In this document: one piece after another, positions 2,362 through 50,947 of the stretch
How the letters are laid out: the number at the start of each line of letters is the position of its first letter
Position numbering within the stretch: the stretch's first letter is position 1
Assembly: GCA_003225075.1 (NCBI GenBank)
Contig: QIAP01000040.1
Location: forward strand, 1 to 63,447
Length of the DNA stretch: 63,447 bases
Source of the DNA: Acidobacteriota bacterium
Lineage (GTDB): Bacteria; Acidobacteriota; Terriglobia; Terriglobales; Acidobacteriaceae
Direction of reading: 5' to 3'
Program-made: the position numbers and the translations under genes
Notes under the pieces: generated by a model
Seen by the model: only the letters and a program-made list of their open reading frames with translations
Databases searched by the model: none
What the model was told of the DNA's origin: nothing

Positions 2362-4320
2362 TCAAGATACTTCGCCGTGAGGCTGGGTGGGGCCGCTCTC
2401 TTCGACAAGCCCTGGATCCATCAACGCCCGCTTGATTCTGATTTTCTCGGTCAGCAAGGCCTGTAGTTTTGCCGCATCTTTGCCACGCGTCGCCTGCAAC
2501 TCGCGCTGTACCTGCTCAAGTTTGCGGCGTAAGCCGATGCGTCGCAGAGCTCGAACGGCACCGTCCAGTCGCTCGGCTGTTTGTTCTTCCTCCTCCTTCA
2601 TCAGAATTGAAGCCAGCAGCCGCCGATCCGGGTCGGAAAGCGGTATCTCCAACACATCGGCAATATTGGAGCCGGAGTGCAGCAGCGCTTCCACCAGAGG
2701 CTCGGTCGCCAAACCTTCATGCAGACGTTCATTTTGAAGCACGAATCGTGCCTGGCGGGCAGGATCGAACTGTTCTTCGGCGCCATCACGGGCAGACAAA
2801 TGGGTCTCCGCGGTTTGCATTTCGGTCGCGGAGGTGAGCGCCCGAATAAGAATTCGTTCAGCGTCGGTTGCCTGCACCTCCACGGGAGCCTTCAGGGCTG
2901 CTGATGACCGATTTGCGACGGCATGCTTCAACTCTTGTCGCAGCACGGCTGAATCAATGCCCAGCTTCTGCGCTATCTCCTGGGAAAGTTCGTCGCGCAC
3001 GATCCGGCTGGGCACGCGCTGAATATGCGGCAGGAGATAGTTGACCGCTTTGACCTTTGCTTCGGCGCTGCGGACGGGGAATTGGATGCGGGCACGCTCG
3101 ATCAGGTAGTCAAAGTATCGTTGCGAGTTTTTGAGGGCGCCCGCATATGCGTCTTTACCCTTACGCCGGATGTACAAGTCAGGATCAAACCCGGCTTCGA
3201 GGGTGAGCACCTTGATCTGAAATTCTTCTTCGACCAGCAGCCCAAGGGTGCGTTCGGTGGCCTTTGCTCCCGCCGCGTCAGGATCGAAGTTGACCACCAC
3301 ATTCTTGCTGAAACGACCGAGCAGCCTGGCCTGCGGCTCGGTAAACGCGGTTCCGGAACTAGCGACCACATTGTGAAACCCAGCGGCCGAAACTGAAATG
3401 CAATCCATCTGGCCTTCGACCACGATGGCATAGTCCAGTTTGCGAATGGCTTCTTTGGCCTGCTCAAAATTGAACAAAACCCTCGACTTGGAATAGATGG
3501 GGGTCTCGGGCGAATTCAGATATTTGGGACCGGCTTTTTCGTCGGTGGACAAAGTGCGACCAGTGAAAGCGATTACCCGTCCGGCCTCATTTGCGATGGG
3601 AAAGATCACCCGGTTGCGGAACTTGGAGTACATTACCGCCGCGGAGACCGGTGTGGCCTTGGTACTCTCAGGTCGCTCAGAATTATCAGGCTGTTTGGGA
3701 ATGTTCTTTTGCTGAGGGCGGACGGCTGAGGGCTGACGGCTATCCTCCTGCTTCCATGAAAGCAGTCCGCTTTCCTTGAGAATGTCGTCGCCGAATTCCG
3801 CGCGCAACCGGTCGCGCAAGACGAAGCCCGAGTCGGGGGCGTAACCAATGCGGAAGCGCGCAATGGTTTCCTCGTCTAACCCGCGTCCAGCAAGGTATTC
3901 GCGGGCGCGCGCGCCTTCCGGTCGCTTTAATTGTTCCTGAAAGAAAGCGCAGGCGCGCTCGTGAATTTCGAGCAACGCCGTGCGCTGCTTCGCCTGCTGA
4001 GCTTCAGCAGGACTGCTGAAGTTGACCTTAGGCAGCGCAACGCCCAACTTCTGCGCGACGGCTCTTACCGCCTCCGGAAAAGTAATATTCTCGATCTTCT
4101 GGACGAAGCTGAACACATCTCCGGAAGCTCCACAACCGAAACAGTGATAGAACTGGCGTGAAGCATGCACTGAAAACGACGGCGTCGTCTCGCTGTGAAA
4201 TGGACACAGCCCGGAATAGTTCTGAGCTCCAGCCTTCTTCAGCTTGACGTAGTCTCCGACGATGCGGACGATGTCCGCCTGCTGCTTGAGGGTGTCTTTG
4301 AAGTCAGAGGACTGGGTCAT
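2362..4320 (-). CDS. dnaG: DNA primase DnaG
   Basis: Synthesises RNA primers for replication. Domains in order: an N-terminal CHC2 zinc finger (C39, H42, C60, C63), the RNA polymerase catalytic core, a Toprim fold around residues 295-380 (VVEGQMD and VNFDPDAAG supply the acidic metal ligands) and a C-terminal DnaB-interacting region. At 652 aa it is slightly long. About 40 low-complexity residues sit near residues 195-235, between the zinc/RNAP-basic region and the core motif FRNRVIFP; part of this insert is encoded by a four-unit 7-bp repeat (see 3712-3739). The ATG start is unambiguous. Gene order mutS2-dnaG-rpoD recalls the macromolecular synthesis operon without rpsU. Confidence 0.96.
   Translation of the reverse strand: MTQSSDFKDTLKQQADIVRIVGDYVKLKKAGAQNYSGLCPFHSETTPSFSVHASRQFYHCFGCGASGDVFSFVQKIENITFPEAVRAVAQKLGVALPKVNFSSPAEAQQAKQRTALLEIHERACAFFQEQLKRPEGARAREYLAGRGLDEETIARFRIGYAPDSGFVLRDRLRAEFGDDILKESGLLSWKQEDSRQPSAVRPQQKNIPKQPDNSERPESTKATPVSAAVMYSKFRNRVIFPIANEAGRVIAFTGRTLSTDEKAGPKYLNSPETPIYSKSRVLFNFEQAKEAIRKLDYAIVVEGQMDCISVSAAGFHNVVASSGTAFTEPQARLLGRFSKNVVVNFDPDAAGAKATERTLGLLVEEEFQIKVLTLEAGFDPDLYIRRKGKDAYAGALKNSQRYFDYLIERARIQFPVRSAEAKVKAVNYLLPHIQRVPSRIVRDELSQEIAQKLGIDSAVLRQELKHAVANRSSAALKAPVEVQATDAERILIRALTSATEMQTAETHLSARDGAEEQFDPARQARFVLQNERLHEGLATEPLVEALLHSGSNIADVLEIPLSDPDRRLLASILMKEEEEQTAERLDGAVRALRRIGLRRKLEQVQRELQATRGKDAAKLQALLTEKIRIKRALMDPGLVEESGPTQPHGEVS
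3712..3739. repeat. Four 7-bp repeat units inside dnaG
   Basis: Plus-strand units CTGAGGG, CGGACGG, CTGAGGG, CTGACGG run head to tail. They encode (minus strand) the RQPSAVRPQ part of a low-complexity linker in primase. Short-period degenerate repeats of this sort are more usual between genes. Confidence 0.7.
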
Positions 4321-45486: not shown

Positions 45487-47394
45487 ATGGCCCCCGAAAC
45501 CGACCTGCTGGCTCCGCTCCGTCTTTACTGGGGTTACGATTCGTTCCGTCCATTGCAGGAGCGCATTGTTCGCAGCCTGGTGGCCGGGCACGATGCCTGT
45601 GTAGTCATGCCAACTGGCGGAGGAAAATCACTTTGCTATCAGCTACCCGCAATAGTCCTGGGTCAAACCGCCGTCGTCATCTCCCCATTGATTGCCCTGA
45701 TGCAGGACCAGGCCGCGCAGTTGGCGCAAATGGGAATCCCCGCCGCGGTCTTGAACAGTTCTCTGTCCGAAAGCCAGCAGGTGACAGCGATGCGCGAAGC
45801 TCAGGCGGGCGAGTACCGGCTCCTGTATCTTTCGCCTGAACGGCTGGCGCGCCCCGATACTATCGGCTGGCTTCAGCGCGTTCCAATCGCATTCTTCGCC
45901 ATTGATGAGGCCCATTGCATCTCCGAGTGGGGCCACGAATTTCGTCCGGAATACCGCCAATTGAGCCGTCTGCGCGCTCATTTCCCCGGCCGCCCGATCG
46001 CGGCTTTCACCGCCAGCGCCACTCGCCGGGTGCGTCAGGACATTCTTACCCAACTCCAATTGCACAATCCGCACAAATACATCGCCAGCTTCCATCGTCC
46101 CAACTTGCGGTACATCGTCAAGCAATGTGAAGGCGATACGCAGCCTGATCTGCTTCTTAGCGGATTGCGCAAGTATCCGGACGGCAACATCATCGTTTAC
46201 GCTCCGACGATCGCTAAAGTCGAAGAGACGGTGGACTTTCTCGAGGAACAGGGCATTCCCGCTGTTTCCTATCACGGCAAGATGGAGACCAAAACTCGAA
46301 GAACCAACCAAGAGCGCTGGATGTCAGACGAAGTGCGTGTACTGGTGGGCACCATCGCGTTCGGGTTGGGTATCAACAAGGCGTCCGTCCGCTCCGTGAT
46401 TCACCTCTCGCTCCCAAAATCAATCGAGCAGTACTACCAGGAGGCCGGACGAGCTGGTCGCGACGGTCATCCCGCGGAGTGCCTGTTGCTCTGGCAAAAG
46501 CGGGACACGGCCCTGCTGGCCTACTTCATTGAGCAGGTGACCGATGCGGCGGAAAAGGAACGGGCCTGGGAGCGCTATCGCACTATCCGCCGCTTCGCCG
46601 AATCGAGTAGCTGCCGCCACCGCCAGATTTGTGTGCACTTCGGCGAAACTCCCAAGTGGACATCATGCGCCGCTTGCGATGTTTGCAGCGGCACGCCCGA
46701 GTGGCTGGCGACACCCGAAACAGAGCAGCCAAGTCACACGGAGACGGTCCGAGTCAACCGCCTGCATCAGTTCGAGCCCGAAGAAAAGCCTGCCCTTGCG
46801 GATGTGGATCCCGAATTGCGGGACTATCTCCGCGAGTGGCGGCGCATCGCAGCCCGGCAACAGAATGTTCCTGCCTTCGTCGTGATGCACGATACATCGC
46901 TCGACGAGGTTTGCCGCAAACGCCCGGCAACGATCCCCGAACTTCTGGGTGTCTCCGGCTTCGGCGAGCACAAAGCTGAGATGTATGGCCTGCAGATCTT
47001 CGGCGCCTTGAGACGATATCGCGAAGGCGCCCGAATGACGCGGACGCCAGTAAAGAAATCGACGCCGGCTTACGAAACCATGCGCCTGCTCGCCGCCGGG
47101 AACACTTTCGAGGAAATAGCGAAAATTCGCGGACGCCAACTCACCACCATCGTCAGCCTGGTGGCCGAACTCATAGAAAGCGGGCAACTGCAATTTCAAC
47201 CCACGTGGATCGACGACAATAAACGCTCGGTCATAGAAGCCGCATGCGCTCGTCTCGGTGTCCAGCGCCTCAGACCGCTAAAAGACGTCCTGCCGCCAGA
47301 AGTCACCTTTGATGAAATCCGATTGGTAGTCGCGCGACTGCGCTGCGAACAGACGAATCAAGAGAAGTTAGCTCAGCAAAAAATGCCGGCTTAA
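45487..47394 (+). CDS. recQ: ATP-dependent DNA helicase RecQ
   Basis: 635 aa from ATG 45487. 3'-5' helicase used in recombination and repair. Walker A MPTGGGKS, box DEAHCISEWGHEFRPEY, helicase C-terminal domain (QYYQEAGRAGRDGHP), zinc-binding cysteines (CRHRQIC...CAACDVC), an HRDC domain (about residues 440-520) and a C-terminal HTH_40-like domain. The stop codon overlaps by 3 bp the stop of the convergent PBP1A gene. Confidence 0.95.
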   Translation: MAPETDLLAPLRLYWGYDSFRPLQERIVRSLVAGHDACVVMPTGGGKSLCYQLPAIVLGQTAVVISPLIALMQDQAAQLAQMGIPAAVLNSSLSESQQVTAMREAQAGEYRLLYLSPERLARPDTIGWLQRVPIAFFAIDEAHCISEWGHEFRPEYRQLSRLRAHFPGRPIAAFTASATRRVRQDILTQLQLHNPHKYIASFHRPNLRYIVKQCEGDTQPDLLLSGLRKYPDGNIIVYAPTIAKVEETVDFLEEQGIPAVSYHGKMETKTRRTNQERWMSDEVRVLVGTIAFGLGINKASVRSVIHLSLPKSIEQYYQEAGRAGRDGHPAECLLLWQKRDTALLAYFIEQVTDAAEKERAWERYRTIRRFAESSSCRHRQICVHFGETPKWTSCAACDVCSGTPEWLATPETEQPSHTETVRVNRLHQFEPEEKPALADVDPELRDYLREWRRIAARQQNVPAFVVMHDTSLDEVCRKRPATIPELLGVSGFGEHKAEMYGLQIFGALRRYREGARMTRTPVKKSTPAYETMRLLAAGNTFEEIAKIRGRQLTTIVSLVAELIESGQLQFQPTWIDDNKRSVIEAACARLGVQRLRPLKDVLPPEVTFDEIRLVVARLRCEQTNQEKLAQQKMPA

Positions 47395-49619
47395 TGCGTC
47401 TCTCCGTCCCCGGGGGCCACATCCGGAGTATCCAACTTGTGCGCCACCGCGTTGCCCTGCAACTCCGGCGGCGGCTGAAATTCTCCTGGATCGCCAGCAG
47501 CAAGTGCGACTTTCATGAAATCTATCCAGATCGGCAAGGCAGCCCGCGCCCCGGTTTCCTTGTTACCCAGGGATTTCTTCTCATCAAAGCCTACCCAAAC
47601 TCCGCATGTCATCCCAGGAGAAAACCCCACAAACCAGGCATCGGTAAAGTCATTCGTGGTTCCGGTTTTTCCTCCCAGCGGATATTTCATGCTTGCAGCC
47701 GCAATACCCGTGCCGTGCAATACAACCTCCCGCAGCATGGAAGTCATAATGCGCGCGGTTCGCGCGCTGATCACGTCTTTCACGTCGGGAAAATCCTCTT
47801 CCAGCACGCGCCCTTCATAATCCGTCACTTTCGTGATGTAGCGTGGCGTAAGACGCACGCCGTCATCGGGGAATACGCTAAATGCAGACGTCTGCTCGAA
47901 CAATGTAATGTCCGCGGCCCCTACAGCCACAGGCAAATACGCAGGAATATTTGACGTGATACCGAAGCGATGCGCGTAATCGATGACTGTCTTGATACCG
48001 ATGCGATCGGCCAATTTCAGCGCTGGAATGTTCCGCGACTGTGCCAATGACCGTCTCAGCGTGATGATGCCTTCAAACTTTTCGTCGTAATTGTGCGGTG
48101 AGTAGGGGCCTGAAGCGGTCTCGAAAGTCACCGCAGCATCGAGGACTGTGTCATCCGGGGTTGCGCCTTGATCGATCGCTGCCGTGTATACATAGGGCTT
48201 GAACGACGAGCCTACCTGGCGCAGCGCTTGGGTAGCGCGGTTGAACTTGGAATCATTGAAATCGCGACCACCCACCATGGCCTTAATTTCGCCGCTGGCG
48301 TTATCAATCGCGACCAGGGCGCCCTGCACGCCCGAGTCTTGTTCCAGGCTCACGCGAGCCTTTCCATCCGGCGAGAGTGCCAGCACCTTCACATAAATAA
48401 TGTCCCCCAACGCCAGGCTGTCGCGAATCTTTTTCTGTGTCCACGCAGCCTCGGATTGGGCCAGGGTGGCGGCGTAACGCCCGAACTTCACCATCGCGGA
48501 TTCCGGCGAGACTGCCGTTACTAAAGCATGAACGTAGCTGCCGCTTGCGGGTTCGTCATCCCAATCCGGATGTTGGTACTTATCTAATGCGACGCCCAAC
48601 GCCACTAGATTCTGCAAATGTCCGCGCCAACTGTACCGCCGTTCGTACGCCGCCAATCCATCGAGAACTGCTTTATTCGCTGCTTTCTGTAAATCCATAT
48701 CCAGCGAGGTGAAGACGCGCAGTCCCCCCTCGTGCACCTGGTCGCTGCCGTATTTGTTCTCCAGATAACGCCGGATCTCCTCGACAAAATACGGAGCCAG
48801 CGAATTGGAATCGTGTTGCAGATTCAAGCGCACCGGTTGCGACTTCGCTTCGCCGGCTTGCTGGGCGGTGACTTTGCCATCTTCCAACATCGCGTTAATC
48901 ACCAGGTTGCGACGCTTGATCGCGCGATCCATATGGTTTATAGGCGAGTAAAAGCCGGGAGCTTTCGGTAAGCCAGACAGCAGCGCGGCTTCATCCAGGG
49001 TAAGTTTCTTCGCTGGCTTGCTGAAGTAAAACTCCGACGCGGCTTCAAATCCATATACGCCGTGGCCAAGGAAAATCTGGTTGGCGTAAAGCGTGAATAT
49101 TTGAGGCTTGGTAAAGCGACGCTCGATTTGGATTGCCAGCAGGGCCTCCTGAATCTTGCGATGAAAGGCGCGATCAGGAGAAAGAAATAAATTGCGTGCC
49201 AACTGCATCGTCAGCGTGGACGCCCCCTGCACCTTTCCGCCAGACTCGATATCGCGATAGGCTGCCCCCGCGATCCGCCATACGTTGACTCCCCAGTGCC
49301 GGTAGAAGTCCTTATCTTCGATAGAAATCAGAGCGTCCCGCAGCACTTCCGGATAGTCGTCATAGGACGCGACAACTCTCCGCTGCAGCGCGAACGACCC
49401 GATTACCCGACCGTGATCATCATAGAGTTCGGTAATCGAGCTGGGACGATAATGCTCCAGCTCTTCGACCTGAGGGAGATCGGTGGAATAGACCAGCAAC
49501 AGGCCGATTGTCGCGCCCAGCAATGCTGCGACCAGCACGAGCAGGACGAATAGGACACGCCCCACCAGCCTCCTGCCCACGATTTCCGCCGCAGGACCAT
49601 CCTCGAACAAAGTTGTCAT
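47391..49619 (-). CDS. Penicillin-binding protein 1A (bifunctional transglycosylase/transpeptidase)
   Basis: 742 aa. Type II membrane protein: one N-terminal helix (VLFVLLVLVAALLGATIGLLL), a GT51 transglycosylase domain with the catalytic glutamate in IEDKDFYRHWGVN and the motif GASTLTMQLARNLFL, and a transpeptidase domain with SSFK (catalytic serine), SRN and KTGTTN. Polymerises and cross-links peptidoglycan. Separated from the S41-family gene upstream by a terminator. Confidence 0.95.
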   Translation of the reverse strand: MTTLFEDGPAAEIVGRRLVGRVLFVLLVLVAALLGATIGLLLVYSTDLPQVEELEHYRPSSITELYDDHGRVIGSFALQRRVVASYDDYPEVLRDALISIEDKDFYRHWGVNVWRIAGAAYRDIESGGKVQGASTLTMQLARNLFLSPDRAFHRKIQEALLAIQIERRFTKPQIFTLYANQIFLGHGVYGFEAASEFYFSKPAKKLTLDEAALLSGLPKAPGFYSPINHMDRAIKRRNLVINAMLEDGKVTAQQAGEAKSQPVRLNLQHDSNSLAPYFVEEIRRYLENKYGSDQVHEGGLRVFTSLDMDLQKAANKAVLDGLAAYERRYSWRGHLQNLVALGVALDKYQHPDWDDEPASGSYVHALVTAVSPESAMVKFGRYAATLAQSEAAWTQKKIRDSLALGDIIYVKVLALSPDGKARVSLEQDSGVQGALVAIDNASGEIKAMVGGRDFNDSKFNRATQALRQVGSSFKPYVYTAAIDQGATPDDTVLDAAVTFETASGPYSPHNYDEKFEGIITLRRSLAQSRNIPALKLADRIGIKTVIDYAHRFGITSNIPAYLPVAVGAADITLFEQTSAFSVFPDDGVRLTPRYITKVTDYEGRVLEEDFPDVKDVISARTARIMTSMLREVVLHGTGIAAASMKYPLGGKTGTTNDFTDAWFVGFSPGMTCGVWVGFDEKKSLGNKETGARAALPIWIDFMKVALAAGDPGEFQPPPELQGNAVAHKLDTPDVAPGDGETH

Positions 49620-49682: not shown

Positions 49683-49710
49683 AAAAAAAACGCGCGCCCT
49701 AAGGCGCGCG
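49683..49710 (-). terminator. Intrinsic terminator for the S41-family gene
   Basis: On the minus strand: stem CGCGCGCC / GGCGCGCG (49710-49703 with 49698-49691), 4-nt loop, then eight Ts (49690-49683). It separates the S41 gene from PBP1A. Confidence 0.93.
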
Positions 49711-49735
49711 CGATATGAAATACGAGAACTGTTCT

Positions 49736-50947
49736 TTACCCTTGGCGATTCTTCAGTACCTGAATGGCTTTCTGTAACTGGTCGTCCTGCTGCGAGTGCT
49801 GCTTCTTTGGCTCGCTCTGGGGTGCGTTCGCTTGATCCTCATCCGGTAGGCCGGCTTCATCCTCATCCGCGACCAGCACGTTCGGGGTGACGGCTGCGTC
49901 CTGAATAGCCTTGCCGCTGGGCGTGTAATACTTTGCCACCGATAAAATCAGCGCGGATCCATCCGGCAAATCAATGGTCTTCTGGATCGATCCATCACCA
50001 AAAGTCTTGTCCCCCACCACGTCTCCACGCGCGTTTTCAAGCACCGCCGCGGCCACAATCTCCGCCGGACCGGCCGTGCCCCGGTTCACCATCACCACCA
50101 CCGGCAGGGTCGTAATGTCTTTGGCTGGATCAGCATTGAAAGCTTCCCGCGGAACCTTCTGCCCTTGCAGGTAAGTAATCGTCCCATGATTCAGGAAAAG
50201 ATTCGCGGTGGCGATGCCTTCCGACTCGTCACCTTCGGAAGCGTTCCGCAAATCCAGTATCAGCTTCTTGACGCCCTGCTTCTGCAAAGATTTGATCTTG
50301 TTCGCGATCTCCTGCGATTTCCCCTTGTTGAACGCGTCCGCTTTGATGTAGCCAATTCCCTCATCTACAATCTTGTCGGTCGCGGCAGGAATGCTCACCA
50401 CATCGCGTGTAATCACAACTTTCTGTGGCTCCGCCCGGCGGGCGCGCACCACCGACACCGTGACGTTTGAGCCAGGCTGCCCGGCCAGCATGTTACGGAT
50501 TTCCGCAAGCGACAAATCCCGAGTGCTCTTGCCTTCGACGGCCTCAAAGATATCGGACCCTTCGACCCCCGCCTTGTCCGCGGGGCCTCCCGGAATCACC
50601 GAAACCACCGCAGCGTAGCCAAATCGTTTGGAAACGGTCGCGCCGATGTCGCCTTTCCCATCCGTCTTAAGGGACTTGTATTCCTTGTACTCCGACGCAG
50701 TCAGATAACTGGAGTTGGCATCGAGGGACTCCAGCAATCCGTGCAGAGCGCCCACTGTTACCGCCGGGATGTTGGGATCCTCGACGTATTCACTGCGTAC
50801 CCGCGACAGCACTTCACTATAGACCTGCAGTTGCCGGTAGGCGCCGTCGTTTGAGGAAGCGCTTACGCCTCCCCACTCGCCCGCCAACATGAATAGGAGT
50901 ATCGCAAAAGATGAAACCAGAACCATCGCTTTAATTTTCATAGACAT
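49736..50947 (-). CDS. S41-family (CtpA-like) protein lacking catalytic residues
   Basis: 403 aa. Signal peptide (residues about 1-30), the S41 helical region, a PDZ domain (about 95-165; ATVSKRFGYAAVV...SDIFEAVEGK) and the S41 core (IGYIKADAFNKGKSQEI, LILDLRNASEGD, VVVMVNRGTAGPAEI, VGDKTFGDGSIQ). In active C-terminal-processing proteases the SASAS motif carries the catalytic serine and TFGKG the lysine, 25 residues apart. Here those positions are G293 (in TAGPAE) and D318 (in TFGDG), at exactly the same spacing, so the protein is predicted to be inactive as a Ser/Lys protease. The C-terminal 40 residues are acidic/Gln-rich. Strong terminator follows. Confidence 0.9.
   Translation of the reverse strand: MSMKIKAMVLVSSFAILLFMLAGEWGGVSASSNDGAYRQLQVYSEVLSRVRSEYVEDPNIPAVTVGALHGLLESLDANSSYLTASEYKEYKSLKTDGKGDIGATVSKRFGYAAVVSVIPGGPADKAGVEGSDIFEAVEGKSTRDLSLAEIRNMLAGQPGSNVTVSVVRARRAEPQKVVITRDVVSIPAATDKIVDEGIGYIKADAFNKGKSQEIANKIKSLQKQGVKKLILDLRNASEGDESEGIATANLFLNHGTITYLQGQKVPREAFNADPAKDITTLPVVVMVNRGTAGPAEIVAAAVLENARGDVVGDKTFGDGSIQKTIDLPDGSALILSVAKYYTPSGKAIQDAAVTPNVLVADEDEAGLPDEDQANAPQSEPKKQHSQQDDQLQKAIQVLKNRQG

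Follow-up and report, generated by a model that had tools for sequence, protein, structure and literature searches.

A CtpA-family protein of Acidobacteriota without its catalytic dyad, and the class of putative pseudoproteases to which it belongs

Gene locus and protein architecture

The stretch of DNA analysed here (the window, 63,447 nucleotides from the draft genome of a soil-dwelling member of the Acidobacteriota) carries a pseudo-CtpA gene at positions 49736–50947 of the minus strand, on which all window features described below also lie. The open reading frame is intact, begins with ATG and encodes 403 amino acids, the stop codon being included in the coordinates; location, strand and the integrity of the rest of the gene agree with an earlier note that had been made from this DNA alone. 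The product has the arrangement of S41A peptidases (Prc/CtpA/CtpB), with a PDZ domain preceding an S41 core. Pfam assigns the core to residues 198–358 (Peptidase_S41, E = 3.7e-40; 49874–50356) and PDZ_6 to residues 114–168; Pfam and a structural match of the predicted model together place the PDZ domain at approximately residues 98–185 (50393–50656). In phmmer searches, residues 41–387 align to H. pylori CtpA (E = 8.7e-54) and residues 39–359 to P. aeruginosa CtpA (E = 6.3e-52). The protein also passes the NCBIfam model TIGR00225 ('prc'), by 0.1 bit (218.7 versus a cut-off of 218.6). The hydrophobic N-terminus (residues 1–31, 50855–50947) is a probable export signal. The earlier note had called the fold complete: Pfam bears this out for the PDZ domain and S41 core, and the signal peptide is an assignment by eye. 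The downstream neighbour (47391–49619) is a class A penicillin-binding protein, PBP1A-like according to Pfam.

Loss of the catalytic residues

We placed the active-site residues by alignment, with P. aeruginosa CtpA as reference. Ser-302 of CtpA aligns with G293 (codon GGT, 50069–50071) and Lys-327 with D318 (codon GAT, 49994–49996). Alignment and codons thus both confirm the proposal that Gly and Asp occupy the dyad positions, and the proposed spacing of 25 residues is correct. The column of the helper histidine, His-84, is occupied by N78 (50714–50716), and the substrate strand DLRxNPGGx has degraded to DLRNASEGD (50228–50254), where A236 aligns with Asn-244 and E238 with Gly-246. Two residues are retained: Q322, equivalent to Gln-331, and E296, equivalent to Glu-305. 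The window protein therefore lacks both the Ser-Lys dyad and the DLRxNPGG substrate strand by which S41A enzymes are recognized. According to the excerpts of the CtpA study that we consulted (PMC11021448), the S302A and K327A mutations abolished CtpA activity in vivo and H84A reduced it, whereas for Q331A the effect on the principal test substrate was minor. By these mutant data, the residues missing from the window protein include the two that matter most. It is very probable, judging from the alignment, that the protein has no catalytic apparatus.

To compare columns we used a main alignment of 105 rows of the window's class, 27 normal Acidobacteriota paralogues retrieved with a separate query, and 10 outside S41 proteins; rows were assigned to a class by the query that found them, which makes this the fair comparison. 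Six rows had been dropped. Two were the separate pieces of the frame-broken normal copy in the own genome; the others were a normal row that after trimming ended before the active site (L107), a row covering the PDZ domain alone (L102), the fragmentary L094, and L176. The outside set comprised nine plasmid-collection records, L176 being the one dropped, and two PDB sequences. Serine occupies the Ser column in 2/105 class rows, 27/27 normal paralogues and 10/10 outside S41s, and lysine the Lys column in 0/105, 27/27 and 10/10, respectively. Histidine is found at the His-84 column in 1/105 class rows, 27/27 normal rows and 6/10 outside S41s. The substrate strand follows the same pattern: Asn-244 is present in 4/105 class rows versus 26/27 normal paralogues, and Gly-246 in 19/105 versus 27/27. 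Val-248 is a substrate contact of CtpA; its column holds Asp or Glu in 71/105 class rows. Gln-331 is kept in 98/105 class rows, yet in only 38/61 family representatives, so even this column erodes. In an earlier set of loci, Lys was likewise absent from the best S41 protein of every locus whose row covered the site; the rows not covering it were L002 and L004 (fragments of the own genome's normal copy) and L094.

A possible objection was that the catalytic Ser and Lys lie elsewhere in this subfamily. The alignment gave no such positions, and the column statistics revealed no new conserved Ser, Cys, His or Lys in the class. Within columns 36–360, only four are conserved in more than 75% of the class and in less than 20% of the normal rows: Y37, L71, Y111 and G293. 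An alternative active site was rejected on these statistics.

Distribution in Acidobacteriota

Our census of Acidobacteriota comprises 149 genomes or loci, each represented by a single row; 61 family codes account for 127 of them, and the other 22 are named contigs that lie near the window's family. Matches shorter than 250 amino acids were removed, as were rows gapped at the Ser or the Lys position, and one row was kept per genome. All but one of the cores are distinct (148/149), and 65 of the 149 rows come from the window's family group. The census rests on fetched loci, with lower-scoring genomes taken on purpose, and most of the class was collected with profiles built from it, so that its own members are favoured. 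In 146 rows, the window included, one or both dyad residues are missing, and in 138 both are; Ser is kept in eight rows, Lys in six and both in three. The suggestion that acidobacterial genomes hold an inactive subfamily is borne out on a broader scale than proposed, across 61 family codes.

All three rows with both residues belong to family f26. These loci (L195, L197 and L200) adjoin EnvC and carry Phe at the His-84 column; from their sequences, they are possibly active remnants or cases of regain. The other rows with Lys combine it with Gly (the fourth f26 genome and one f41 genome) or with Asn (one f15 genome).

Within the window's family group, Gly occupies the Ser column in 65/65 rows, so G293 is not an error in one genome. 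The Lys column is filled by Glu (29), Asp (27), Val (5), Ile (2), Gln (1) and Ser (1). Outside this group it is highly variable (R, L, M, A, W and others), which identifies the loss of Lys, rather than the gain of Asp, as the shared trait. Conservation of a Gly/Asp pair, which the earlier note had asked about, consequently holds in part: Gly is constant in the family group, whereas Asp or Glu accounts for 56/65 rows there and the position varies strongly elsewhere.

A longer paralogue with His, Ser and Lys was found in 56 genomes, and the census shares 36 of these. In the census, PDZ and entropy counts, 'normal' is defined by these three residues, which are therefore at 100% by construction. 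With one open frame per family, the median length is 557 amino acids for the normal paralogue versus 413 for the class, and the shortest normal frame has 497. None of the 56 normal rows has EnvC within 600 bases; a short EnvC-linked S41 protein retaining all three residues would have entered the normal set, and none was overlooked among the loci fetched. The class profile matches 395 of 396 genomes ranked, a figure that does not measure prevalence since the weaker best matches include normal paralogues. For some of 60 lower-scoring genomes (for example G001, G004 and G034), the long normal paralogue was fetched and the short form was not seen.

The own genome's long normal Ctp, with Ser and Lys (contig C107, approximately 2405–3831; L104), is split over two frames, apparently by one frameshift, and is whole in a relative (L105). 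The split is probably a sequence error in the draft genome. If it were real, the window's genome may have no active S41A protease.

Phylogenetic analysis

The window's class separates from the normal Ser/Lys paralogues in quick, unrooted trees. A branch with SH-aLRT support of 100 sets the class rows apart in the first tree (67 rows versus 27) and in the wider tree (66 versus 21); in the third the support is 93 (44 versus 27). These trees have a weak backbone and many distant rows on long branches with uncertain alignment; L176 is absent from the wider tree. In the wider tree, family f26 nests inside the dead class (99), and the Lys label requires at least three changes, indicating that catalysis was either lost more than once or regained. 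A single ancestral loss is not established, since three of the four genomes in this nested family have Ser and Lys. The class does not group with P. aeruginosa CtpA in the wider tree, where CtpA sides with the normal paralogues and the outside S41s. The case for orthology with that enzyme comes from gene order only. We read the class as an ancient, phylum-wide pseudo-CtpA.

Gene neighbourhood

Gene order hints at the ancestry of the class more strongly than the trees do. In 44 of the 149 census loci (32 family codes), the gene is preceded on its own strand, at a distance of at most 600 bases, by an EnvC-like M23 gene, and 41 of these 44 lack at least one dyad residue. Downstream, a YibQ-type divergent polysaccharide deacetylase is found in 25/149 loci (21 families). 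Both neighbours flank the gene in 21/149 (17 families), at least one dyad residue being absent in 19 of the 21. Because only short sequence (less than 2500 bases) was fetched for 16 of the 149 loci, neighbours are undercounted. Pfam detected M23 or Polysacc_deac_2 in 12 of 13 spot-checked neighbours, two of them from a Sinorhizobium record; a fragment at L163 gave no match. The coiled coil of the EnvC-like proteins was judged by eye. The same slot is known with an active enzyme: P. aeruginosa has the order envC-ctpA-PA5135, where CtpA is active and PA5135 is the yibQ/sddA orthologue (PMC12569750, excerpts). The Sinorhizobium record (L175) has the order envC-ctpA-yibQ with Ser and Lys intact, and in E. 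coli envC adjoins yibQ with no ctpA between them.

The window gene does not adjoin EnvC and has PBP1A in its place; M23 proteins of its own genome are encoded on other contigs, the best on C147 (E = 4e-24). Adjacency to envC is a frequent, not a defining, trait of the class. In 42/65 loci of the window's family group, PBP1A lies downstream in the same orientation and no more than 600 bases away; for 11 of the 65, less than 2500 bases were fetched. The PBP1A neighbour named in the earlier note is accordingly confirmed by Pfam at the window, but was seen only in this family group, the neighbour elsewhere often being EnvC.

An intrinsic terminator separates the gene from PBP1A (49690–49712), with a 9-bp stem containing eight G-C pairs and a T run, as had been claimed. 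A scan found three terminator-like sites versus 2.1 expected in shuffled sequence, two of the three being the same hairpin in two registers; this count is no evidence, but as a structure the hairpin is strong. Thirteen relatives were checked, two of which (L081 and L096) have no listed PBP1A, and 11 carry a comparable hairpin 3' of the gene. Its stem sequence is altered in these relatives, so that the hairpin looks like a kept feature. With a terminator between them, co-transcription of the gene with PBP1A is not implied.

RuvX or MltG genes occur within 2500 bases in 23/149 loci (17 families), their identities having been checked with Pfam in L140. In L140, L146, L150, L154, L157, L162–L164, L167, L169 and L170, the gene lies near divergent RuvX and MltG, and a nearby block resembles ThrS, RplT, PheS and PheT by sequence.

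Selection

Nei-Gojobori comparisons were made in the window's family surroundings. Against ten relatives, the window gene gave dN/dS values of 0.056–0.081 in seven cases and 0.141 in one, with saturated synonymous sites in the remaining two. Among the eight closest pairs, all of them between genes other than that of the window, the values were 0.046–0.088. Fifteen of the 16 listed comparisons that yielded a value thus lie within 0.046–0.088 and the other at 0.141; synonymous distances are near saturation, which makes the values rough but leaves them far below 1. Purifying selection around the window, with dN/dS of about 0.06, agrees with the description of the gene as maintained.

PDZ domain and structural model

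The carboxylate-binding loop of B. subtilis CtpB is formed by Gly113-Ile114-Gly115-Ala116 (PMC3808539, excerpts). Residues 100–103 of the window protein read D-I-G-A, with I101-G102-A103 (50639–50647) aligning with Ile114-Gly115-Ala116. G102 is kept in 143/146 members of the class, whereas the first Gly of the loop is found in 24/146 class rows versus 56/56 normal rows. Arg168 of CtpB couples the PDZ ligand to catalysis, as stated in the same excerpts; its column, placed by hand on the CtpB sequence, is occupied by A155 in the window protein (50483–50485) and holds Arg or Lys in 56/56 normal rows versus 40/146 class rows (28/61 with one row per family). The excerpts further report that the dead CtpB S309A variant still bound PDZ ligands at 2–10 uM and kept its conformational switch (PMC3808539). 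A dead Ctp can hence remain a tail-binding switch. The retained carboxylate loop and a dN/dS of about 0.06 argue for a maintained binding role.

Class-typical PDZ residues cluster at positions 107–111 (50615–50629). Position 111 is Tyr or Phe in 45/61 class family representatives versus 1/39 normal ones, and position 107 is Lys or Arg in 53/61 versus 15/39; Arg at 108 does not discriminate (30/61 versus 18/39). Residues 107–111 could, on this pattern, form a new contact surface. Over the whole PDZ domain the class is not better conserved, with a mean column entropy of 2.05 bits versus 1.70 for normal rows, two sets that differ in diversity.

An AlphaFold model of the window protein, computed with 22 relatives, reached a pLDDT of 55.7 and a pTM of 0.39, too poor to judge the pocket. 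Its residues 96–186 match a solved Ctp PDZ domain (Z 14.7, rmsd 2.1). VIA-align searches with the model found CtpB, CtpA and Prc, mainly over residues 94–320, with an rmsd of 9–11 Å for whole CtpA and CtpB. These matches add only that the fold is as expected.

Discussion

We think it somewhat probable that the window protein is a non-cutting pseudoprotease of the CtpA family that stems from the envC-ctpA-yibQ slot and is kept for binding tails through its PDZ domain. In many Acidobacteriota families its lineage occupies the middle slot of this division operon, and the genes of the remaining families may descend from it. Catalysis has very probably gone along with Ser, Lys, the helper His, the substrate strand and often the coupling Arg, the fold and the PDZ carboxylate loop having been retained. 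In the simplest model, the protein may then act as an exported, dimeric scaffold whose PDZ groove would hold the C-terminal tails of cell-wall enzymes or regulators without cutting them. A tail-binding or adaptor role, as the sequence stands, is plausible. Candidate roles include a non-cutting adaptor, a sequestering factor or a decoy for the active long Ctp. As candidate partners we would put EnvC/amidase factors first for most families and for the ancestral state; in the window's family, the long Ctp or factors linked to PBP1A may take this part.

A further-reaching version of this reading can be offered only tentatively. Acidobacteriota may have turned the protease of the envC-ctpA-yibQ division operon into a non-cutting regulator that captures the tails of amidase activators or other wall enzymes and then holds or presents them, and the Acidobacteriaceae lineage may have moved it to the PBP1A locus. 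If this were true, septal or sidewall hydrolysis would be controlled via binding instead of degradation.

Could the dead protein instead, like other pseudoproteases, be a regulatory subunit that pairs with the active long Ctp of its cell via the dimer regions at both termini, altering the activity or substrates of that enzyme? The two coexist in the genomes with a Ser/Lys paralogue (56, with 36 among the 149), CtpA and CtpB assemble through their N- and C-terminal regions according to the excerpts of PMC11021448, and a consensus of 33 class members retains the C-terminal motif DxQLxKALExL. The dead gene and the long Ctp gene, however, were not seen as neighbours, and the normal paralogue is both longer and far diverged, which leaves such a partnership doubtful in our estimate. 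That the class still cuts, using another nucleophile or base, appears quite unlikely. Thr291 (102/105), Glu296 (105/105) and Gln322 (conserved to the extent given above for its column) persist in the old active-site segments, and three f26 members retain Ser and Lys; but the same columns are conserved in normal enzymes (as Ser or Thr, Glu and Gln), so the fold explains them, the class-specific columns offer no new Ser, Cys, His or Lys, and the substrate strand has degenerated too. A decaying or nearly neutral gene without present function, as the widely variable Lys column outside the window's family group might suggest, is highly improbable given open frames in 61 family codes and the low dN/dS around the window.

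Comparison with known systems

One of the closest points of reference for the tail-binding pseudoprotease that we favour is P. aeruginosa CtpA (PDB 7rpq, 8sxe), with LbcA. It shares the PDZ and S41 fold with the window protein over residues 39–359 of the latter, and its slot between EnvC and a YibQ-type deacetylase is common to many Acidobacteriota families, though not to the window gene. CtpA has Ser-302, Lys-327 and His-84 and degrades cell-wall hydrolases, whereas the window protein has Gly, Asp and Asn at these positions. B. subtilis CtpB (PDB 4c2c–4c2h) is the best match of the partial model (Z 16.7, rmsd 9.1) and shares the I-G-A loop. CtpB couples ligand binding to cutting, which a protein without the dyad and Arg168 cannot do. 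E. coli Prc/Tsp shares the PDZ-S41 core with a weaker sequence match (E = 1.2e-20); it differs in being larger and active, with the adaptor NlpI.

Another non-proteolytic user of the S41-type fold is the interphotoreceptor retinoid-binding protein RBP3. It differs from the window protein in being a vertebrate protein of repeated modules that binds retinoids. The normal acidobacterial paralogue matches RBP3 (E = 1.4e-13), which is not among the 24 phmmer matches of the window protein at E 0.001.

Listings from searches of the open-access literature contained no description of an inactive CtpA/S41 lineage, Acidobacteria included. Pseudoproteases are already known, and an inactive CtpA lineage, as it appears here, would be the undescribed element. 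For annotation, a protein over the curated cut-off of a peptidase model such as TIGR00225 cannot be assumed to be a peptidase. The principle proposed here, a dead protease kept for client binding, is that of iRhoms and other pseudoproteases, which are unrelated in fold and pathway. Degradation of cell-wall hydrolases is what CtpA and Prc are known for; if a phylum has kept such a gene, often in the same operon slot, yet disarmed the protease, this would show that the scaffold has a binding function separable from cutting.
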